From positions 1-64,000 of the forward strand of contig JAILZY010000011.1 in assembly GCA_023512255.1 (NCBI GenBank): DNA of 64,000 nucleotides. Direction: 5' to 3'. A program made the position numbers and the translations under genes. Positions 15,601 through 64,000 of this stretch are shown here, in pieces. Position 1 is the stretch's first letter. The number at the start of each line of letters is the position of its first letter. Under the pieces are notes generated by a model, which saw only the letters and a program-made list of their open reading frames with translations, did not search any database and was not told the DNA's origin. Source of the stretch: a bacterium. Lineage in GTDB: Bacteria > SZUA-182 > DTGQ01.

Positions 15601-17523
15601 ATGAAAAACGTAGTTATTGGTCTTGCTGGGCATATTGATCATGGCAAGACTGCTCTGGCCAAGGCTCTTACTGGCATAGACACTGATCGGCTGAAAGAGG
15701 AAAAGGAGCGAGGCATATCGATAGAATCAGGCTTCGCACCCTGTCGGCTTCCCAATGGACAGCTGGTGAGTATTGTTGATTGCCCAGGCCATGAAAAGTT
15801 TATCAAGAATATGCTCAGGGGCATCTCTGGGGTCGATGTGGCCATACTGGTTGTCGCCGCCGATGATGGCCCTATGCCTCAGACTAGAGAGCACCTTGAT
15901 ATTCTTGCCCTCCTGGGAATCAGGCGCGGGCTGGTAGTAATCAATAAGATTGATCTTGTGGACAGAGACTGGCTTGAGCTAGTTCATGAGGAAATCATCA
16001 GGCTGATTGAGCCAACTTTCCTTCGACAGGCGCCGATTATCAACTGTTCATGCCGAAGCGGAGAAGGGATTGAACAATTGAAAAAAGCCCTGATGGAAGC
16101 TGTGGACAAGGTTGAGAGAGCTAGCTTAAGGGAGGAATTTAGACTTCCTGTGGATCGGGTTTTTTCAATCCCTGGCTACGGCACAGTGGCTACTGGCACT
16201 TTAGTGGATGGCGAGGTAATGGCTGGATCGACAGCCGTGGTTTATCCTGAAGGTCGCAAAGTCAAAATCCGCGCTCTCCAGGTTCATAATCAGTGGGTAG
16301 AAGAAGCCCAGGCTGGGCAGCGAGTTGGCTTTAACCTGGCCAATATAGGGATATCTGAGCTAAAGAGAGGAGATGTTATCGCCTCACCAGGCTCCCTTCT
16401 GCCTACCACTATCCTGGATGCCAGGCTCCGATATCTGGAATCTAACCTTGCTCCCTTGACCAATAGAACCAGGGTCCGGTTGCATACCGGAACTACTGAA
16501 GTCATAGCTAGAGTGATTTACATGGATAGGGAGAAAATCGAGCCTGGTGAGCAGGCTATTGTTCAGTTCAGGCTGGAAGAGAAGGTTGCACCCGCGGTCT
16601 TTGACCGATATATTATCCGCTCGCTCAGCCCTGCCCATACTATCGGCGGAGGAGTTATCTTGGACGCCTACTCAAGGCGCTATAGTGCCACAGAGGGCAA
16701 CAGCAGAGCGGCTCACCTAAAGCTTCTGGAGGAGGGAAAATTCGAGCAGTTTATCATCGAGACACTTTCACGGTATAAATTTCATCCCTGCACTCGGAGT
16801 GAACTGATTCGCAAGACTGCCCTCTCTCGCAAAGAGCTTGACCAGACCCTGGCCCGGCTACAGGCTGAGGGCGAAATTTGCCCCCTTGATGATGAAGAAT
16901 TTTTGATATCCAGTAGGCAGGCAATCTGTATCAAGGAAAAACTGATCGATACATTGAAAGATTTTCATCGTAAAAATCCTCTTGAAAAAGGGATGGGGAA
17001 AGAGCTCCTCAGGTCAAAGATAGCCGTAGAAATAGATAGCCGGCTTTTCCATCATCTCATCAGGGAGCTTGAGATGAGCCGGACAATCGTCTCTGACGGC
17101 CCAACGATCAGGCTGGCTGACCACAGCCTATCTTTCAGCTCAGGGCAAAAAGAGATTATCAAGACCATGGAACGGGAACTTTTGGCCAGCGGCCTGCGGC
17201 CATTAAAGATAACGCAGCTATATCAGAATATCCCCCATAGGGGAGAGGAGGTGGACAGATTATTAAAGGTGCTCATAGATCAAGGCATTTTCATCCGAAT
17301 TGCTCAAGATACCATTATGCATAGCCAGCCTTTCCATGAGCTCAGAGAGATGATAAAGGCGCATATCAAGGAGCAGGGAAAGCTTACCCTCCATGATTTT
17401 CGGGACCAGATAGCAGATCTTGGTCGAATAAAAACCGTTCAGATTCTGGAATACTTAGATTCTATCGGTTTCACTAGACGAATCGGTGATATTCGAGTGC
17501 TTACAAGATCTGAAAACAAATAA
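15601..17523 (+). CDS. selB: selenocysteine-specific translation elongation factor
   Basis: The 640-residue SelB delivers Sec-tRNA to the ribosome at UGA codons followed by a SECIS element. The GTPase domain shows GHIDHGKTAL (G1), DCPGHEKF (G3) and NKID (G4). Beta-barrel domains II-III follow, then a C-terminal string of winged helices (about 400-640) that bind the SECIS RNA. The length fits bacterial SelB. An AGGTG box precedes the ATG by about 10 bases. It is linked with selC upstream; selA and selD are not in this window. Confidence 0.95.
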   Translation: MKNVVIGLAGHIDHGKTALAKALTGIDTDRLKEEKERGISIESGFAPCRLPNGQLVSIVDCPGHEKFIKNMLRGISGVDVAILVVAADDGPMPQTREHLDILALLGIRRGLVVINKIDLVDRDWLELVHEEIIRLIEPTFLRQAPIINCSCRSGEGIEQLKKALMEAVDKVERASLREEFRLPVDRVFSIPGYGTVATGTLVDGEVMAGSTAVVYPEGRKVKIRALQVHNQWVEEAQAGQRVGFNLANIGISELKRGDVIASPGSLLPTTILDARLRYLESNLAPLTNRTRVRLHTGTTEVIARVIYMDREKIEPGEQAIVQFRLEEKVAPAVFDRYIIRSLSPAHTIGGGVILDAYSRRYSATEGNSRAAHLKLLEEGKFEQFIIETLSRYKFHPCTRSELIRKTALSRKELDQTLARLQAEGEICPLDDEEFLISSRQAICIKEKLIDTLKDFHRKNPLEKGMGKELLRSKIAVEIDSRLFHHLIRELEMSRTIVSDGPTIRLADHSLSFSSGQKEIIKTMERELLASGLRPLKITQLYQNIPHRGEEVDRLLKVLIDQGIFIRIAQDTIMHSQPFHELREMIKAHIKEQGKLTLHDFRDQIADLGRIKTVQILEYLDSIGFTRRIGDIRVLTRSENK

Positions 17524-44455: not shown

Positions 44456-45028
44456 ATGTCATCAATAAGTGCTCAAATCATAGGGATTAATGCTGGGGCG
44501 TCTGACGATATTGGCGCTAAATGTGTAGATGCGGTATGCGATCCAAATGCGGAGGCTAGTATTATTGCCTTGCTCAAGGGGCTACTCAAACAGCTTCAGG
44601 GCGATGGCTCAGGATCTGCACCGGTAAACCTTGCGGGATGCTTGTCGCACGAATATGACACCATTGATGTGGCTAAGCAGAGCAAGGGGGGGGTAACAGT
44701 AGCCCATAACGCTATTACTGCTACTGCCACCAGCGATGAGATTGACTGCCGGGGCTATAATGCCATTTCGGTTGAGTGTGAGGTATCGAATATTACCTCC
44801 GGTAATTGGGTAGTAGAGATTTTGGGAAGTGCCATATCTGGGGGAACATTCGGCAACTGTTACCAACCCAAGGATGATGGTGATTTTGCTCAGCAGAAGA
44901 CCCCCACGCTAGATGCTAATGGCAATAAAACCTTTTATTTTCGCGGCGTTCCAAATTTCGTCAAGATTCGGGCTACCCGCACAACCGACGGTACCCTAAC
45001 CTGCCGAGTGACCCCGATGAATCTGTAG
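44456..45028 (+). CDS. phage-virion-like protein of unknown function
   Basis: The 190-residue protein has no signal peptide. It contains an ASIIALLKGLLKQLQGDGSG-like segment (about 34-53) and a beta-rich C-terminal domain (about 85-190). The LLALLKGLLKQLQG pattern is known from phage structural proteins near tail-fibre genes. Why it lies inside a polysaccharide cluster is unclear. With the deacetylase-like protein at 40555 it may be phage-derived cargo. I do not assign a function. Confidence 0.6.
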   Translation: MSSISAQIIGINAGASDDIGAKCVDAVCDPNAEASIIALLKGLLKQLQGDGSGSAPVNLAGCLSHEYDTIDVAKQSKGGVTVAHNAITATATSDEIDCRGYNAISVECEVSNITSGNWVVEILGSAISGGTFGNCYQPKDDGDFAQQKTPTLDANGNKTFYFRGVPNFVKIRATRTTDGTLTCRVTPMNL

Positions 45029-51818: not shown

Positions 51819-52886
51819 ATGATCATTACCAGAACACCATTTAGAATAACTCTGGGGGGAGGAGGAACCGATTTACCATCATACTACACTCAATACGGAG
51901 GATTTGTTTTTAGCGCGGCCATCAACAAGTATATGTTCATTAACTTGAATCGACCAGTGGTCGACGATCTGGTCAGGGTAAAATACACCAAATCTGAAAC
52001 CGTCAAACACCGGGATGATCTACAGCATGAAATTGCCAAGGGGGCCCTGAGGATGTTGGGCATTGAAAGGGCTATCGAGATTATCTCCTCAGCCGACATT
52101 CCAGACGGGACAGGGCTCGGTTCATCAAGCTGTTATGCCGTTGGGCTGCTGAACGCCATTCATGCGCTAAAGCGCGATTATATCAGCCTTCCTGAGTTGG
52201 CTGAGGAAGCTTGCTATCTTGAGATTGAGTTATTGAAAAAACCGATTGGCAAGCAAGATCAATACATTGCTACCTTTGGTGGATTGACTGCCTTTGAGAT
52301 CGCTAAGGATGGCCGGGTTACTGTGATCAGGGCTGATGTCTCATCGAGTGTGTTAGATGATTTGAAGCGAAATTTGCTGATTTTCTACACCGGAGTATCG
52401 CGTCAGAGTATGGATATCTTGAGTGAGCAGAACAAGGGCGCTCAGACTAATAAGAAAACGGTTTTAGAAAGTCTCCATTATATTAAAGAGAGCGGCTATC
52501 GGATTAAGGAGCTGATCGAAAGTGGCAACTTGACCGATTTTGGCCTGATGATGGATAAGCACTGGGAGTATAAGAAAAAGATGTCTTCTAAGATCTCTAA
52601 TCCGGAATTTGATCGGATTTATGAAGTGGCTAAAGAGTGCGGTGTTCTCGGCGGCAAGATTACCGGTGCCGGTGGAGGAGGATTTTTCCTGTTTTACATC
52701 GAGAAAGGGCATGAGCGGCTGCGAACAGCAATGCATATGATGGGGCTTCGGGAAATGAGATTTAACTTTGAATTTGAAGGCTCAAAGGTTTTGGTCAACC
52801 TGATGAATAGCGAAGATGAAGGTCAGAGTCGCTATGTATGGACTCCTTCGCGGCTAGAGAGAATGGCGGTAATTCATGCGGTATAG
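51819..52886 (+). CDS. hddA: D-glycero-D-manno-heptose 7-phosphate kinase
   Basis: The 355-residue GHMP kinase shows RTPFRITLGGGGTDLPSYY at the N-terminus, the ATP loop PDGTGLGSSSCYAVGLLNA (about 95-113) and the C-terminal GGKITGAGGGGFFLFY. This fits HddA, which phosphorylates heptose-7-phosphate at C1. GmhA, GmhB and HddC candidates follow in the cluster. Confidence 0.88.
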   Translation: MIITRTPFRITLGGGGTDLPSYYTQYGGFVFSAAINKYMFINLNRPVVDDLVRVKYTKSETVKHRDDLQHEIAKGALRMLGIERAIEIISSADIPDGTGLGSSSCYAVGLLNAIHALKRDYISLPELAEEACYLEIELLKKPIGKQDQYIATFGGLTAFEIAKDGRVTVIRADVSSSVLDDLKRNLLIFYTGVSRQSMDILSEQNKGAQTNKKTVLESLHYIKESGYRIKELIESGNLTDFGLMMDKHWEYKKKMSSKISNPEFDRIYEVAKECGVLGGKITGAGGGGFFLFYIEKGHERLRTAMHMMGLREMRFNFEFEGSKVLVNLMNSEDEGQSRYVWTPSRLERMAVIHAV

Positions 52887-52962
52887 GTATAGTTCTTGGG
52901 TATGGGTATATTATGGGTATAGAGATTATGGGTATAGAGAAAGAACCATTTAGAGCAAGGCT

Positions 52963-53796
52963 ATGAAACTTAAGGGTAAAATTGCCATTATTACTGGCGG
53001 CAGCCGGGGGATAGGGAAAGCCATAGCCAGGGCATTTTTGGCTGAGAGCGCCTCGGTAGCCATTGCTGGTCGGAATCAGGATGAGCTGACCAAGACTAGC
53101 CAAGAGTTGTCAAGGTTTGGAGTTATTCGCAGCTTTCGGGCTGATATCTCGGAGGAAAAGGACATACAGAAGCTTGTGGCCGAGGTTTTGGATACTTTTG
53201 GCACCATTGATGTGCTGGTGAACAATGCAGCTGTGCAGGGACCGATCGGGAAATTTTGGGAAGTAGGCTTTGATGATTGGGTTAACAATATCAATATTAA
53301 TCTGCTGGGTACTGCCCGATGTATCCGTGAGGTATTGCCTATTATGATAGCCAAAAAGGCAGGTAAAATCATCAACCTGTCAGGTGGTGGAGCCACTGCC
53401 CCAAGAGCCTACTTTTCAGCCTATGCCGCGGGGAAGGCGGCTGTTGTTCGGTTCACAGAAACTCTGGCCGAAGAGCTTAGAGAGTATCATATCGATGTCA
53501 ATGCTATAGCTCCGGGGGCGGTAAATACAAGGATGCTGGATGAGGTATTGGCTGCAGAAGATAGAGCTGGGGATAAAGAGCTGCGGGAGGCTAAGAAGAG
53601 AAAAGAAAAAGGGGGTACCCCACCTGAGCTAGCAGCCGCTTTGGCGGTATTTTTAGCCTCCTCGGCCTCTGACGGTCTGAGCGGGCGTCTTATCAGTGCG
53701 GTTTGGGATGATTGGATGCGGTTTGGACCGGATCGGATTCAAGAGGTTATGTCGGGAGATTTATATACCCTGAGAAGGGTTAGCCAAAAGGGATAG
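52963..53796 (+). CDS. SDR-family oxidoreductase
   Basis: The 277-residue enzyme has the cofactor motif TGGSRGIGKAIA (about 10-21), NNAAVQGP, and the active-site Ser and YxxxK as YAAGKAA (about 153). It is a classical short-chain dehydrogenase, probably acting on the heptose or a related sugar nucleotide. The substrate is not known. Confidence 0.85.
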   Translation: MKLKGKIAIITGGSRGIGKAIARAFLAESASVAIAGRNQDELTKTSQELSRFGVIRSFRADISEEKDIQKLVAEVLDTFGTIDVLVNNAAVQGPIGKFWEVGFDDWVNNININLLGTARCIREVLPIMIAKKAGKIINLSGGGATAPRAYFSAYAAGKAAVVRFTETLAEELREYHIDVNAIAPGAVNTRMLDEVLAAEDRAGDKELREAKKRKEKGGTPPELAAALAVFLASSASDGLSGRLISAVWDDWMRFGPDRIQEVMSGDLYTLRRVSQKG

Positions 53797-53845
53797 TAAT
53801 CGGGTCTTGTGGAGTTGATGAGATGATGAGGGAGAAGATCAAGAT

Positions 53846-54850
53846 ATGCAAGTAGCCATCATAGGAGCAGGTTTAATCGGGAATAAGAGAGCTGCGGCCA
53901 TAAGGAAGTTGCCAGAGTGCAAACTGGTGGCGGTTTGTGACCTCAATCTTGAACGGGCCAAGAAATTGGCTCAAGAGTTTGGTGCAGAGGCCTATCAGAG
54001 TTGGGAAGAGATGGGGACACGGCGAGACGATATCGAGTTAGTAATCGTGGCTACCATAAACAAGTTTTTAGCTCCTATCACTCTATTCTTTCTAGAGCGG
54101 GGAAAGCATGTTTTGTGTGAAAAGCCTCTGGGGAGAAATGCCTCAGAATCCAAGCTCATGGTAGAGGCGGCCAGAGAGAGAGGAGTAAAGCTTAAAACCG
54201 GCTTTAACCACCGCCATCATCCAGGCATAGCCAGGGCGCGGCAGCTGGTGGCTGAGGGTCAGATTGGTAAAATTAGCTTTTTGCGCTGTAGGTATGGTCA
54301 CGGAGGTAGGCCAGGATATGAGCATGAGTGGCGGGCGGATAAGGACCTTTGCGGCGGGGGTGAACTCCTGGATCAGGGAGTGCATGTGGTAGACCTCTTC
54401 CGCTGGTTTGTCGGGGAATTCCATGAGGCTTTTGGCTATCTTTCAACCTATTTTTGGAAGATGGAGGTTGAGGATAACGCCTTTGCTTTGTTTAAGACTA
54501 AGGCTGGACAAATTGCCTTTATGCATACTAGCTGGACTCAGTGGAAAAACCTGTTCTCTTTTGAGGTTTTTGGCTCTGAGGGGTATGTGGTTGTGGAAGG
54601 GTTGGGCGGAAGCTACGGCCCACAGAGGCTAAGAATAGGCAGAAGGAGACCAGAGGGCTGGGTGCCGGAAGAGGAGTTTATCGATTTTCCCGGTGAGGAT
54701 ATTTCCTGGGAAGAGGAGTGCAAGGAACTGGTGCAGGCCATTAAGGAAAATCGTGAGCCCCTGGGAAGCGGCTGGGACGGGTATCAGGCTAATCGAATGC
54801 TTGGAGCGGTGTACGAGTCAGTCCGGCTTGGCAGGCCAGTAAATTTATAG
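53846..54850 (+). CDS. Gfo/Idh/MocA-family oxidoreductase
   Basis: The 334-residue enzyme has Rossmann motif AIIGAGLIGNKRAAAI (about 4-19), the EKPLGRNASE catalytic Lys (about 93) and the substrate-domain GGGELLDQGVHVVDL. It is the second Gfo/Idh enzyme in this cluster. A role in modifying the heptose or another sugar is inferred. Confidence 0.87.
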   Translation: MQVAIIGAGLIGNKRAAAIRKLPECKLVAVCDLNLERAKKLAQEFGAEAYQSWEEMGTRRDDIELVIVATINKFLAPITLFFLERGKHVLCEKPLGRNASESKLMVEAARERGVKLKTGFNHRHHPGIARARQLVAEGQIGKISFLRCRYGHGGRPGYEHEWRADKDLCGGGELLDQGVHVVDLFRWFVGEFHEAFGYLSTYFWKMEVEDNAFALFKTKAGQIAFMHTSWTQWKNLFSFEVFGSEGYVVVEGLGGSYGPQRLRIGRRRPEGWVPEEEFIDFPGEDISWEEECKELVQAIKENREPLGSGWDGYQANRMLGAVYESVRLGRPVNL

Positions 54851-54872
54851 GCCTTTTACCTTCAAAATAAAG

Positions 54873-55521
54873 ATGATTTTCTTCTGGCTATTGATTTTTA
54901 CTCCTCTACCCAAAGGAACAATAACCTTTTGGCCTTCTGCTACAGTTCACCACCTTGTCTGCCTCGGGCTATTGATCAGTCTTCTGGTTGAGATGAGATG
55001 GAGGATGGGTAAATCAAACGGAGGCTGGCAAAAGGCGCGAACCTGTTTGGATCTGCCCATCCTGATCTTTTTCCTCCTCCTTACCCTGTCGGCTGTATTC
55101 TCGATTGATCGCAAGCACAGTCTTTTTTGAATTATTGAAGTTTATTGATTGTGTAATTATTTACTACACGGTAGTATTTCGGTGTGATAACCAAAGAGAT
55201 ATAAATTTATGCCTCTATCTCATCATGGGCGTAGGATTTTTCTTCTCTGTCCGGGGCATTATTCAATACCTCGGAGGAGCAGACCGCTCTTTTTGGCTCC
55301 TCGCCAACGAGCTTTCAGGGCCGTTTGATAATTCTGATGTTTTCGCTGGCTATCTGATTATGGTCATATTGCCTGGGCTTGGGGTAATGACTGCTCCCTT
55401 GCTCCATTTTATGTCAAATACTATCCTTCTGGCTACCTTAAGCGGCCTGGCTATGAGCAGATATTTTCAAGAGAAAAGCCGGCTGAAGGAGCCTTCCTAT
55501 ATCAGAGATAGCAGTTTTTGA
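54873..55521 (+). pseudogene. frameshifted and truncated O-antigen ligase-like gene
   Basis: The first frame (54873-55130) ends at TGA right after SAVFSIDRKHSLF, at a run of six T. The second frame (55105-55521) continues as FELLKFIDCVIIYYTVVFR, the usual next part of O-antigen ligase-type proteins. Removing one T restores continuity. The joined product would be only ~210 residues with about five transmembrane segments, whereas the family is about 400-700, so the C-terminal half is also lost. An intact family member is at 41761. Confidence 0.75.
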
Positions 55522-55611
55522 AAAAATCTTAGGTCTCTCTTTTGAGCAATAGCCACATTTTGATAACCACCCCCTTTTTGATAACAACACCATTTGCGAG
55601 GACCAATCAAG

Positions 55612-56553
55612 ATGAACAAAAAAACCATTCTGGTTACTGGCTGTGCAGGCTTTATCGGCAGCAACCTGTGTAGATGGCTCTGCGATGAAGGGTATATGGT
55701 AGTGGGGATTGATAACCTCTCTTACGGTACCCTTGAGAATATTGATCCACGGGTGATCTTTCACCGGAAAGATATTCGGGATCCGGAGATTTATCCCTTA
55801 TTTGAAGGGGTAGATACCGTGTTTCATCTGGCGGCTAAAAATTGCCTGATCGATTGCCTGCGAAATCCTCTTGAAACGAGCGAAATTAATGTCTATGGAA
55901 CAGTCAATGTTCTTGAAGGAGCACGAAGAGCCGGGGTGAGAAAATTTATCTACGCCGATACCTCGGCTGAATATGAAGGGATCATGGATTTTCCCTCTAG
56001 GGTAGACAGGGTGTGTCCTATAAGCACCTATGCTGTGAGCAAGAGGGGGGCGGCTCTCTTTTGTGAGAGCTACCGCAAGCTTTTTGGCATGCGCATTACG
56101 GTCTTGAGATATTTTAATGTCTATGGTCCGGCTCAGGATTGGCGCCGAGTGGTGCCTCCAGTAATGAGCTCTTTCATTATGAAAATGCTCAAAAGGGAAA
56201 GGCCGGTGATTTATGGAAATGGAGAAAAGAGACGTGATTTTATCTATGTGGATGATGTCAACCGGTTTCATCTTATGGCCATGAATGATGAGCGGCTAGA
56301 TGGCGGTACATTTAATGTGGGCAGCGGGATAAATTACTCGATTAATGATATCTTTTCAGCCATCGAAAATATTCTGCGCACTGGGCTGACTCCAATCTAC
56401 CGAGAGGACCTGCCCGGGGAGGCACAAATCACCTTGGCGGATATCTCCCGGGAGAGAACCCTCGGGTGGGAACCAAAGGTAAGCCTGGAAGAAGGGTTGA
56501 AAAGGTCAATAGAGTATATTCAAAGCAAAGTGCTTGGGATGAGTCTGCTATGA
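55612..56553 (+). CDS. NAD-dependent epimerase/dehydratase
   Basis: The 313-residue SDR-extended enzyme has TGCAGFIGSNLCRWL (about 7-21), active-site motif YAVSKRGAALF (about 140), and FNVYGPAQDWRRVVPP. The ATG at 55612 fits the family start better than 55594. It lies between the other heptose genes, and overlaps the next gene as ATGA. It may epimerise or reduce the GDP-heptose. Confidence 0.87.
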   Translation: MNKKTILVTGCAGFIGSNLCRWLCDEGYMVVGIDNLSYGTLENIDPRVIFHRKDIRDPEIYPLFEGVDTVFHLAAKNCLIDCLRNPLETSEINVYGTVNVLEGARRAGVRKFIYADTSAEYEGIMDFPSRVDRVCPISTYAVSKRGAALFCESYRKLFGMRITVLRYFNVYGPAQDWRRVVPPVMSSFIMKMLKRERPVIYGNGEKRRDFIYVDDVNRFHLMAMNDERLDGGTFNVGSGINYSINDIFSAIENILRTGLTPIYREDLPGEAQITLADISRERTLGWEPKVSLEEGLKRSIEYIQSKVLGMSLL

Positions 56554-57263
56554 AGGGGATCATTTTGTCTGCTGGCAAAGGAACAAGGCTTGGCTCATAT
56601 ACCCGAAACATACCTAAGGTGATGATGGAAGTTGGAGGAAAGCCGGTTCTGGAATATGGAATTCTTCTCTTCAAACAGCATGGGATTGAGGAGATTTTTA
56701 TCAATCTTCACCACTGCCCGCAGGTGATTCAGAACTACTTCGGGGATGGTCGAGCGTGGGGGGTGAAGATTCGGTATCATTTTGAAGAGGAGCTTCTCGG
56801 CACAGCCGGAGCGGTAAAGGCTTTTGAGGATTGGATAGGAGCGGATGATGAAGTTTTTGTTTTATATGGAGATAATTTGACTAATGCTGATCTGGCTGCT
56901 ATGAGACGTTTTCATCAGGAAAAGAGAGGAGTGCTGACTGTAGCCTTTATTGAGGAAGAGGATGTACTGAAAAGCGGCATTATTGCCTTTGATGATCATT
57001 ACCGGATAGTGAAAATGCTCGAAAAACCAAAGCCGGATGAGGTTTTCAGCCATTTTGTGAATGCAGGGCTGCTCTTGATGGAGCCTGCAGTGCTTGACCT
57101 GATTCCAAAGGGTGTATTCTATGATTTCGGCTATCATCTTCTTCCAAGAATGATTCTGGAAGGAATGGAAGTCTATGCTTATCCACTCGATGGATACGTA
57201 ATTTCTATTGATACACCGGAATATTATCTTCAGGCTAAGGAAAAATTTAGACTTAAGGGTTGA
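56550..57263 (+). CDS. hddC: sugar-1-phosphate nucleotidyltransferase, HddC-like
   Basis: The 237-residue protein starts KGIILSAGKGTRLGSYT, the nucleotide-binding signature, and has LYGDNLTNADLAAM for metal binding. This fits heptose-1-phosphate guanylyltransferase HddC, the last step to GDP-heptose. The track start 56466 lies inside the epimerase and is dropped. Whether GTP or another NTP is used cannot be read directly. Confidence 0.84.
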   Translation: MKGIILSAGKGTRLGSYTRNIPKVMMEVGGKPVLEYGILLFKQHGIEEIFINLHHCPQVIQNYFGDGRAWGVKIRYHFEEELLGTAGAVKAFEDWIGADDEVFVLYGDNLTNADLAAMRRFHQEKRGVLTVAFIEEEDVLKSGIIAFDDHYRIVKMLEKPKPDEVFSHFVNAGLLLMEPAVLDLIPKGVFYDFGYHLLPRMILEGMEVYAYPLDGYVISIDTPEYYLQAKEKFRLKG

Positions 57264-57321
57264 AAGATTAGAGGTCAACAATAATCATCACACCGTCAGA
57301 AAAGGGGATATATAAGGTAAC

Positions 57322-58050
57322 ATGGAAGAAATAAGAAGAGCAGTATTTTTAGATCGGGATGGGGTGATCAACGAGATTATCTACCATCAAGATATCGGGG
57401 TGATTGATAGTCCCTTTACACCTGAGCAGTTTCACCTGATGGATGGAGCGGCGTGGGCTATACAAGAGATCAATAGAATAGGCTTGCTGGCTATTGTGGT
57501 TACCAATCAGCCTGGGATTGCTAAGGGACATTTGAGTAAGCGGGTTTTAGACTTGATCACAGAGAAAATGATTAAAGAGCTGGCTCTTGGTGGGGCCTGT
57601 CTGGATGATATCTACATGTGTCTTCACCACCCGAAGGGGAGCGGCAACGGGAGCGGAGATCAGCGCTACGTGATGGACTGTAGCTGCCGAAAGCCAAAAC
57701 CTGGTTTGCTCATCGAGGCTGCCAAGAAGCATCAGATAAATCTGGCTGCCTCCTACATGATCGGCGACAGCATTACGGATATCCAGGCCGGGGCTTCTGT
57801 CGGATGCACTACTTTTTTGATCGGCCATCCAAAGTGTGATTTGTGCCGGATTATGGAAAAAAGCGGAGTGAGGCCAGACTTTATTGTACCAAGTCTTCTG
57901 GAAGCAGTAAAGGTTATCAAGTACCAGGAAAATTTAAAAAACAGTTTCCAAGGCTCATCTTCTGAGCAGTTATGTTTGAGTGAAATATTTATTGATGACA
58001 ACTTTTACGCTCATGAGAATCCCTTGTCAATTGAGAGAAAATTTTGTTAA
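57322..58050 (+). CDS. gmhB: HAD-family heptose-1,7-bisphosphate phosphatase
   Basis: The 242-residue protein has the HAD motif VFLDRDGVINEI (about 8-19), VTNQPGIAKG, zinc-binding Cys/His loop CLHHPKGS...CSCRKPKPGLL and GDSITDIQAG. This is the histidinol-phosphatase/GmhB type. It removes the C7 phosphate of heptose-1,7-bisphosphate. A C-terminal extension of ~50 residues beyond GmhB is present. Confidence 0.87.
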   Translation: MEEIRRAVFLDRDGVINEIIYHQDIGVIDSPFTPEQFHLMDGAAWAIQEINRIGLLAIVVTNQPGIAKGHLSKRVLDLITEKMIKELALGGACLDDIYMCLHHPKGSGNGSGDQRYVMDCSCRKPKPGLLIEAAKKHQINLAASYMIGDSITDIQAGASVGCTTFLIGHPKCDLCRIMEKSGVRPDFIVPSLLEAVKVIKYQENLKNSFQGSSSEQLCLSEIFIDDNFYAHENPLSIERKFC

Positions 58051-58214
58051 CCTAATATTTTCGCTTTTTCTCTAAGTCTTTGATTTTACTAAGGTTTGGT
58101 ATGAAAGATAACTTCAAAAGAATTTCAAGGTATGGAGAGATTTTCCGCAAAAGTGTAGACTTAACCCAGGTTATAAGAAAAAATTTTAAGGAAAGTTAAG
58201 GAGAGAACAACAGC

Positions 58215-58811
58215 ATGGCTTACACAACTGATTACTTTTTGGAGATACAGGAAATTATACGGCGGATCAATCTTTCAGACATAGACAAAATGATAGACCT
58301 TTTAGCTGAAATAAAAACAAGAGGCGGAAGACTTTTCTTCCTAGGCGTTGGCGGTGGGGCAGGAAATGCCTCTCATGCAGTGAATGATTTTCGCAAAATT
58401 GCCGGCTTTGAAGCCTATAGCCCAACGGATAACGCTTCTGAGCTTACTGCTCGCGTCAATGACGATGGTTGGGAGACGGTATTTGTAAACTGGCTTAAAG
58501 GAAGCAGGCTTAGGGCTTGGGATGGGCTATTTATCTTTTCGGTCGGCGGTGGAAATCTGGAAAAGAAGATCAGCGCCAATCTGGTATCTGCTATTCAATA
58601 TGCCCGTGAGACTGGAGCCAAAATCCTTGGCATTGTGGGCCGTGATGGCGGCTATACAGCTCAGGCCGCAGATGCCTGTGTGATTATTCCTACCATTAAC
58701 CCCCAAACAGTTACTCCGCATACCGAATCATTCCAAGGAGTAATCTGGCATTTGATCGTCTCTCATCCCAAAATGAAGGTCTCGGAAATGAAATGGGAAT
58801 CGGTCAAATAA
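58215..58811 (+). CDS. gmhA: SIS-domain phosphoheptose isomerase
   Basis: The 198-residue SIS protein shows RLFFLGVGGGAGNASHAVND (about 39-58) and SVGGGNLEKKISANL, and belongs to the GmhA-like group. It would convert sedoheptulose-7-phosphate to heptose-7-phosphate, the first committed step. The glycine-rich loop differs from textbook GmhA (GNGGSA), so an allied SIS sugar isomerase cannot be excluded. Confidence 0.8.
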   Translation: MAYTTDYFLEIQEIIRRINLSDIDKMIDLLAEIKTRGGRLFFLGVGGGAGNASHAVNDFRKIAGFEAYSPTDNASELTARVNDDGWETVFVNWLKGSRLRAWDGLFIFSVGGGNLEKKISANLVSAIQYARETGAKILGIVGRDGGYTAQAADACVIIPTINPQTVTPHTESFQGVIWHLIVSHPKMKVSEMKWESVK

Positions 58812-61142: not shown

Positions 61143-61171
61143 TTGAAATTCGATTTAATCTTGGATATAAT
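61143..61171 (+). promoter_or_regulatory. strong sigma70-type promoter of the peptide locus
   Basis: TTGAAA and a perfect TATAAT are separated by 17 bases, about 60 bases before the PqqD-like gene. The spacing is ideal. Confidence 0.65.
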
Positions 61172-62661: not shown

Positions 62662-62714
62662 GTTATTTTTGTAAACTAGGTTAACGTTCATCTATAAGTT
62701 AAGGAGGTAGAATC

Positions 62715-62879
62715 ATGGAAGAAAAAAAGACAACAGTCGCAAAACCAGCAGTCAAAAAGGTTTATGAAAAACCCCAGATAGTTTCCGAAGAAGTATTTGA
62801 GACCTTGGCTCTTGCCTGCTGCAAGAGTAATAACTGTAAGAATTACGGCCTTCCGAAGGGGATGCACGCTGTAAGTTAA
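62715..62879 (+). CDS. RiPP precursor peptide (54 residues)
   Basis: This frame is too short for the ORF track. A perfect AAGGAGGT box lies 7 bases before the ATG. The leader has VYEKPQIVSEEVFETLALA, a pattern seen in precursors of PqqD/radical SAM loci. The C-terminal core begins near Cys-35 and holds Cys 35, 36 and 41 (CCKSNNC), ending GLPKGMHAVS. The position just after the maturase, the leader pattern and the Cys core support a modified peptide. The modification could be a thioether or C-C link, which the sequence cannot decide. Confidence 0.82.
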   Translation: MEEKKTTVAKPAVKKVYEKPQIVSEEVFETLALACCKSNNCKNYGLPKGMHAVS

Positions 62880-63200
62880 TAGATCAAGGTTCCAGCCTGC
62901 TGACCCTTTGTTCAGTGTAAAAATTCTCGATTGAGTTATAATTTTTAATATTTTTTACAAAATTCAGCACTTCATATAGCATAAGATGCAGGCTCATCCT
63001 CCAGGATGAGCACTAATCACACACGTCTCTTCTTTGGGGGGAGGAAGAGTGGTGATTTTTCCCTAAAAGTGCCACTTTGGCTCTTCATTCATCTTTTGGC
63101 CTAAGGCTAGCTCTGATGGGACAAGGGGACAGTAGCGCGGCTTTTATAAACATGGAGACCTAACTTTTCCTAAATCTGCCTTTAATGAGGAAAAAGAAAA
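62880..63200. other. spacer with a hairpin after the precursor gene
   Basis: GCTCATCC and GGATGAGC pair at 62992-63011 with a short loop, without a following T run, so the role as terminator is uncertain. The remainder is not coding. GGCCTAAGGCTAGC...GGACAGTAGC near 63100-63140 looked riboswitch-like but fits no class I can confirm. Confidence 0.4.
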
Positions 63201-64000
63201 ATGAAACGAAAGTCTTTTACGATCCTGACATCATTATTGTTTGGATTTATACTCAGTTTATGCCTATTTTTTTGGCATACGCCGCCTGCCTATTCCCAGG
63301 ATAAGGCAGCGGAGAGTACTACTTTGAGTCCGTCGCCCAGAAAAACTTCTGGCGCCTACGTTATCGAAGATATAGCCTATGATCCTGAAACCCAAATTTA
63401 TACCTATACATATGTATTGCATAATCTGGGAAAACAGCAAGTTTGGTGGTGGGGTATATGGTATGAGGAAGATCCTCAAGCTATACTTGATGACTCTTCG
63501 GTAGATGAAAATGGCTTTGCCCCTACTGACTTGACTGACTGCTCGCCTGGATGGAAAAATTCTGCCCCTGAGAGACGGATGGGGTTTTATTTATACAGTG
63601 GTCCTAATGGGGAGCTAGGTTTTTATTCCACCTATGCCAGCGACTCTCGGTCGGGAAATAGCCCGATCGTTCCTGATTCTATCAATGTTCCCCGACTTGG
63701 AGGCCAGTGGGGATGGAATGGGCCAGGAGCGAATATTATCACCGCCTATGGAATCCAAAAAGGACAAACAGGCTATTATGTGATTCGGTCTAAAAAGTAT
63801 TTTCCAGATAATAAGATGTTTTTCTACAATACCAAGGATTACTGGAATTCCTACTTCGATCCTCAGACCGGGCAACTTGTCATCAGGGGGTTGGAATTTG
63901 TCTCTATAACTCAGCGGTCCTATTCGATATCAATGTCTCTGACCCGGGGGTATAATCTTATTTCGCAACCCCTTGAGGAGCTGATAACCTCAGACAATCT
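63201..64000 (+). CDS. secreted protein, partial at window end
   Basis: The frame is open from ATG 63201 to the window edge (266 codons seen). A signal peptide (FTILTSLLFGFILSLCLFFW, cleavage near YSQ) is followed by a beta-rich region with many Trp/Tyr. Near residue 255 it reads SLTRGYNLISQPLEE, recalling the strand pattern GWNLISLPL common in large secreted repeat proteins. The upstream GAGGAAAAAG is a fair ribosome binding site. Not in the ORF track because it has no stop inside the window. Confidence 0.75.
   Translation, partial: MKRKSFTILTSLLFGFILSLCLFFWHTPPAYSQDKAAESTTLSPSPRKTSGAYVIEDIAYDPETQIYTYTYVLHNLGKQQVWWWGIWYEEDPQAILDDSSVDENGFAPTDLTDCSPGWKNSAPERRMGFYLYSGPNGELGFYSTYASDSRSGNSPIVPDSINVPRLGGQWGWNGPGANIITAYGIQKGQTGYYVIRSKKYFPDNKMFFYNTKDYWNSYFDPQTGQLVIRGLEFVSITQRSYSISMSLTRGYNLISQPLEELITSDN

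Follow-up and report, generated by a model that had tools for sequence, protein, structure and literature searches.

The locus lies in the last quarter of a 64,000-nucleotide stretch of bacterial DNA (hereafter, the window), where four genes follow one another in the order NTP_transf_5, PqqD family, radical SAM/SPASM and a short peptide gene (Table 1). The original prediction had proposed a 54-residue open reading frame (ORF) with an ideal ribosome binding site, placed directly after a SPASM maturase and beside a PqqD protein. This was borne out: the ORF at exactly 62715-62879 (+) translates as MEEKKTTVAKPAVKKVYEKPQIVSEEVFETLALACCKSNNCKNYGLPKGMHAVS, a perfect AAGGAGGT ends 6 nt ahead of its ATG, the ribosome binding site and the synteny are both kept in a sister species of the same genus (G002), and Pfam matches confirmed the identity of the two neighbors. 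The peptide gene starts 53 nt past the stop codon of the radical SAM/SPASM gene. Since a promoter-like site precedes the PqqD gene, with both hexamers and their spacing kept in G002, the PqqD, radical SAM and peptide genes probably form a single transcription unit. The fourth enzyme, a kinase, is encoded about 4 kb downstream of the peptide, and the 3.4-kb gene of a large secreted protein fills the space between the two. A hairpin, GCTCATCC-TCCA-GGATGAGC (62990-63013 of the window; z -3.4), separates the peptide gene from the secreted-protein gene and was not seen in G002.

Table 1. Features of the locus, in window coordinates unless stated otherwise
Feature	Position	Strand	Evidence or remark
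NTP_transf_5 protein, 400 aa	59834..61036	+	PF14907, 177.6 bits, 4.4e-52
Promoter-like site TTGAAA-17-TATAAT, ahead of the PqqD gene	61143..61171	+	11/12 matches
PqqD-family RiPP recognition element (RRE), 98 aa	61234..61530	+	PF05402, 57.0 bits (cut-off 23.4), 2.4e-15
Radical SAM/SPASM maturase, 373 aa	61540..62661	+	Radical_SAM PF04055, 2.1e-21; SPASM PF13186, 3.9e-07; both over cut-off
Ribosome binding site of the peptide gene, AAGGAGGT	62701..62708	+	Sequence; kept in G002
Precursor peptide gene, 54 aa	62715..62879	+	ORF sequence, homologue alignment, coding constraint
Predicted core region, CCKSNNCKNYGLPKGMHAVS	62817..62876	+	Ends with the codon (62874-62876) of the family-wide C-terminal Ser
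Large secreted protein, 1149 aa, CHB_HEX_C_1 and Fn3-associated domains	63201..64000 (gene to ~66651 of the contig)	+	Kept in G002
HPr-kinase/PEPCK-type kinase	66860-67717 of the same contig (C90), beyond the window end		Sub-threshold ScmC/HprK matches; Walker A

The leader of the peptide covers approximately residues 1 to 34 and contains Y17xxP20 and the stretch SEEVFETLAL, while the core runs from C35 C36 K S N N C41 up to S54. Searches of NCBIfam and Pfam returned no family covering the 54-residue peptide, and an NCBIfam scan of ten diverse relatives and neighbors gave no match for nine and only a sub-threshold one for the tenth.

We compared nine genomes of the same candidate phylum, four of which carry the peptide (our own, G000, and G001, G002 and G003). 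Five homologues, 57 to 72% identical, were found in the three other species. Three of them lie directly 3' of an orthologous radical SAM/SPASM gene (in G002, G001 and G003), two of these being also accompanied by PqqD and NTP_transf_5 genes; G003 harbors three copies, two of which have no adjacent cognate radical SAM gene. In G002, the block talC-NTP_transf_5-PqqD-radical SAM-peptide-secreted protein is syntenic, and the gene order matches our genome from an epimerase gene to the secreted-protein gene. The alignment reads KKxYxxPxIVSEEVFETLALACCKSNxCxxYGFPRGLHGVS-stop. Within the phylum the core is nearly invariant, including YGFPRGLHGVS, and the YGFPRGLHG stretch is absent from relatives beyond it. 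From KKxY onward, synonymous sites are near-saturated and amino acid changes few: among the six members, pS ranges from 0.57 to 0.97 against a pN of 0.06 to 0.18 for all pairs except the closest (G000/G002), for which the values are 0.29 and 0.13. The ORF is short and belongs to no database family, as a chance ORF or a non-coding overlap would, but homologues in four species, the constraint on a conserved protein, the ribosome binding site and the synteny refute that reading, to which we attach next to no probability. We conclude that 62715-62879 is a real gene. The original prediction also turned on homologous loci having a related small ORF; they do, with strict conservation of both the leader and the Cys core beside orthologous radical SAM and PqqD genes, making it very likely that the peptide is the substrate of the PqqD-radical SAM pair.

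Among solved structures, the profile of the PqqD-like protein best matched the lasso-type RRE TbiB1 (6e-14), and the protein scored 34.9 bits against NF033536. Recognition of YxxP motifs by RREs is established (PMC12710340). Taken together, the TbiB1-type match and this motif make capture of the leader by the PqqD-like protein the likeliest first step. The maturase carries a CxxxCxxC motif (C25/C29/C32) and SPASM cysteines at C258, C276, C315, C318, C324, C327 and C346; the three radical SAM cysteines are kept in 17/17 cassette radical SAM proteins and the SPASM cysteines in 16 to 17 of the 17. Its nearest solved structures are PqqE and SkfB, and it matches the PqqE and mycofactocin models at approximately 107 to 109 bits, far below the curated cut-offs. 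The Cys-containing core of the peptide fits thioether formation by such an enzyme. Judged by its RRE, precursor and maturase genes, the system is probably an RRE-dependent RiPP with a radical SAM/SPASM maturase. The same genome encodes a second YxxP-type candidate precursor, MKAEEQRKQSDIQNQPLSGYEPPRMISYSEEELIEEMEGMAIQACSGFQGAVMSCSG (L022, 9803-9976, minus strand; approximately 44802-44975 of its contig C8), adjoining a radical SAM-PqqD fusion and another PqqD gene; this would be a different radical SAM RiPP.

The kinase measures 280 to 340 aa across the cassettes (G001, G003, G093 and others). In NCBIfam it comes closest to ScmC and to the HprK-related kinases A and B, without reaching any of the curated cut-offs, and its Walker A motif, GxSGAGKST, has an invariant lysine and glycine. 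The kinase gene lies at most 320 nt from the peptide in G001, G003 and G093 and is distant in G000 and G002. In the NTP_transf_5 protein, the nucleotidyltransferase-type residues K107, D126 and D128 are invariant, and the predicted fold gives weak nucleotidyltransferase matches (best E 1.5e-3; model pLDDT 62.6). Sub-threshold matches to MdcG, an enzyme that attaches a nucleotide-containing moiety to a serine of a protein, were obtained for two relatives. Given these weak fold and MdcG matches, direct nucleotidylation is a possible alternative activity. In G102 and G370, NTP_transf_5 is fused to an S24-like peptidase domain, recalling the lasso loci in which a nucleotidyltransferase is fused to the B2 protein (PMC8498205); the fused proteins (L084, 4237-5895; L085, 219-1862) are candidate leader peptidases. 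At three other NTP_transf_5 loci of our genome (C153, C32 and C88), no sibling peptide was found.

Beyond the candidate phylum, a leader of the form YxxPxIxSExxFExxALxC was found in Myxococcota and several other lineages; within the Myxococcales, the search by leader brought up peptides from Kofleriaceae and from one more MAG. The first Cys lies 18 residues from the leader Tyr in 35 of the 39 distinct peptides, and in three more the spacing is 19. All 39 cores contain at least two Cys and vary strongly in length and sequence. The C-terminal residue is Ser in 37/39 and Thr in 2/39; as a background, Ser ends 4.3% of 516 large ORFs from the same loci. The profile behind part of this set extended over the terminal Ser of the six close homologues, but the majority of the distant matches align over the leader only. 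When the phylum of G093, distinct from ours, was searched with the leader alone, five new peptides came up, each with a terminal Ser. One weaker leader match, L145 (E 1.9e-4), has Asp as its last residue. Chance-level matches in G384, G096 and G342 lacked the leader and were dropped on inspection, and the plasmid collection searched contained no match to the peptide. A contig search with the radical SAM protein confirmed nothing, probably because its seeds came from a single sequence; the search with the peptide alignment succeeded.

Two groups of peptides within this family may be singled out. In G112 (L160-L168), some ten copies occur in tandem or scattered, mostly without an adjacent cassette, and most have three Cys in the core (C..YxYY..YEGC..GRGK..C) and a Ser or Thr at the end. 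A long-core version of approximately 60 residues, with SHTPGT-like stretches and a terminal Ser, is found in one family of genomes (L076-L080, L153, L158 and L159); some of these peptides adjoin a radical SAM gene and several are orphans.

The enzyme genes recur together with the peptide. Within 8 kb of the 25 loci found by peptide sequence, a radical SAM gene of the same kind was present at 16, the kinase at 11 and all four genes at 8, counts that express consistency rather than an independent census, as the component profiles were seeded from the same loci and iterated and detection is therefore partly circular. The five loci from the leader-only search all have PqqD, radical SAM and kinase genes (5/5); NTP_transf_5 is clear in two of them, the remaining three being truncated at contig ends. 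Pfam independently confirmed NTP_transf_5 in G093, G102, G370 and G445. Near the family peptides of G157, G295a, G112 and G159 there is no full cassette; the phylum searches around G159, G157 and G112 covered one to three genomes each. The cassette is widespread, recurring in distant bacteria of several lineages. The suggestion in the original prediction that the NTP_transf_5 gene might add a nucleotidyl step not found in standard loci holds by half: the enzyme recurs in the cassette, and lasso loci are known to encode a nucleotidyltransferase that works with an HPr-type kinase on a C-terminal Ser. The original prediction included neither the kinase, whose gene lies outside the window, nor the C-terminal Ser of the family.

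The cassette genes are embedded in or flanked by polysaccharide genes in three of the four species of the candidate phylum, the G001 contig being too short to tell. In our genome the neighbors include sugar transferase, aminotransferase, GHMP kinase and SIS genes, as they do by synteny in G002, while in G003 they are an O-antigen ligase, glycosyltransferases and a UDP-sugar dehydrogenase. Large secreted or repeat proteins (CHB_HEX_C/Fn3, DUF7948/SBBP, FG-GAP) are also encoded near the cassette, both in our genome and in other lineages. These surroundings hint at a role at the cell surface. Farther upstream, at 51819-58811 of the window, GHMP kinase, epimerase, nucleotidyltransferase, HAD-type phosphatase and SIS genes stand in a row that resembles a pathway for a sugar of the GDP-heptose type, Pfam confirming the GHMP kinase and SIS genes only. 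The window also encodes a SelB elongation factor (15601-17523), so that the genome may use selenocysteine.

Several known systems share parts of this arrangement. The paeninodin and pseudomycoidin lasso peptides (PadeK/PsmK, PsmN) have a separate PqqD-like RRE with a YxxP leader, an HprK-type kinase, an annotated nucleotidyltransferase and a C-terminal Ser. In contrast to them, our peptide has a Cys-containing core, no lasso protease was detected in the genome and no cyclase was seen among the neighboring genes, a radical SAM/SPASM enzyme standing in their place. The sactipeptides, ranthipeptides and other SPASM RiPPs (e.g., SkfB) likewise combine a SPASM radical SAM enzyme with a Cys-containing precursor but differ from our system, which pairs a YxxP leader of the lasso type with a separate RRE and has a kinase, an NTP_transf_5 protein and a C-terminal Ser. 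GeoRSP (TIGR04302/TIGR04303) pairs a PqqD-family with a SPASM protein; membership was rejected at 95.1 versus 400 bits (TIGR04303) and 30.4 versus 100 bits (TIGR04302), as was membership in PQQ biosynthesis (PqqD, 28.7 versus 46 bits; PqqE, 107.2 versus 381 bits).

SynChlorMet (TIGR04248-TIGR04251, ScmC/D/E/F) has the kinase-like ScmC, the PqqD-like ScmD and SPASM proteins, and an NTP_transf_5 gene lies nearby in the single complete case found (L119). Scores far under the NCBIfam cut-offs exclude our cassette from it (ScmC, 38.9 versus 125 bits; ScmD, 25.9 versus 100; ScmE, 121.8 versus 400; ScmF, 85.2 versus 400), and SynChlorMet has two radical SAM proteins where our cassette has one. To our knowledge, no precursor peptide has been named for SynChlorMet-type cassettes. 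Candidates with a YEKP leader are present in SynChlorMet-type or related cassettes (L119, 10159-10326, minus strand; L126, 45-269 and 4302-4532, plus strand); these Gly/Cys-rich peptides end in Gly, unlike the Ser of our family. The canonical SynChlorMet-type cassette has the kinase and NTP_transf_5, and its candidate peptide ends in GG. For the enzyme combination described here, we found no name or description in the literature searched, subscription papers lying mostly outside its reach.

The reading we favor, with a probability of roughly 0.6, is that of a four-enzyme RiPP cassette in which the radical SAM enzyme cross-links the Cys core and the kinase and NTP_transf_5 modify the C-terminal Ser. 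We infer the following steps. The PqqD-like RRE would bind the leader via Y17xxP20 and present the precursor to the radical SAM/SPASM enzyme for oxidative cross-linking of the core. As every core of the family keeps at least two Cys, the likely product has one or more thioether bonds from Cys35, Cys36 or Cys41. The HprK/PEPCK-type kinase would then phosphorylate Ser54, and NTP_transf_5 would add a sugar or a nucleotide to the phosphoserine. The last two steps are modeled on the lasso peptides, in which a kinase and a nucleotidyltransferase acting on a C-terminal Ser are experimentally known (PMC9266682, PMC8498205): in pseudomycoidin, PsmK phosphorylates the C-terminal Ser, and the resulting phosphoserine is extended by one or two hexoses through PsmN, which carries a nucleotidyltransferase annotation (PMC9266682). 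Kinase, nucleotidyltransferase and C-terminal Ser form the same trio here, the likeness to PsmN being one of annotation (PF14907 is named "Uncharacterised nucleotidyltransferase"). Several observations speak against this reading: the 3.4-kb gene between peptide and kinase in our genome, the family peptides with no full cassette nearby, the two G003 copies away from a cognate radical SAM gene, the Asp end of L145, the GG end in the canonical SynChlorMet-type cassette and the weak fold match of NTP_transf_5. What the sequences show is the gene, the constraint upon it, the joint occurrence of the cassette genes and the rule of a terminal Ser; the chemistry, the sequence of its steps and the biological role are inferred.

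The peptide might, however, be the substrate of the PqqD-radical SAM pair while the kinase and NTP_transf_5 act elsewhere, for example on the secreted protein or on a polysaccharide, the Ser being kept for recognition by, e.g., the radical SAM enzyme or an exporter. The distance between kinase and peptide genes in G000 and G002, the location in polysaccharide clusters and the GG ends of peptides in some kinase-bearing cassettes would agree with this. We consider it rather unlikely, because the kinase gene adjoins the peptide gene in G001, G003 and G093, because a Ser or Thr terminus is found in all 39 distinct peptides from several lineages with otherwise unrelated cores, and because the lasso peptides offer a precedent for the enzyme pair.

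We are equally doubtful that the radical SAM/SPASM enzyme makes something other than thioethers, be it a C-C or C-O cross-link, an epimerization or a small cofactor of the PqqA/mycofactocin kind, with the Cys binding metal or forming disulfides. A near-invariant YGFPRGLHGVS core suggests a conserved functional molecule and not a variable bacteriocin, which, with the PqqE and mycofactocin matches, favors such a product; the low level of those matches, the confinement of YGFPRGLHG to the phylum and the thioether RiPP-like Cys-pair core with variable spacing across lineages all argue against it. A lasso peptide locus with an accessory radical SAM enzyme could account for the lasso-like matches of the PqqD protein to TbiB1 and NF033536 and for the kinase/nucleotidyltransferase set. 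It is highly improbable, and we rejected lasso membership, since no B2-type leader peptidase (Transglut_core3, PF13471) was detected in the whole genome; moreover, no asparagine-synthase-like cyclase is present among the neighboring genes scanned, and there is no lasso-type Thr near the leader end.

As its genes lie inside polysaccharide clusters, the product of the favored cassette may act at the cell surface. More tentatively, we can envisage a phylum-spanning RiPP family in which a radical SAM-cross-linked peptide bears a sugar or nucleotide on its C-terminal Ser via phosphate and, attached to the polysaccharide of the surrounding cluster, possibly serves as a primer or surface anchor. The cassette would link radical SAM maturation with a lasso-type tailoring of a C-terminal Ser by kinase and nucleotidyltransferase in several bacterial lineages. 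It would provide PF14907 proteins and HprK-like kinases of unknown target with a short, testable candidate substrate, and candidate precursors are indicated for SynChlorMet-type cassettes as well.
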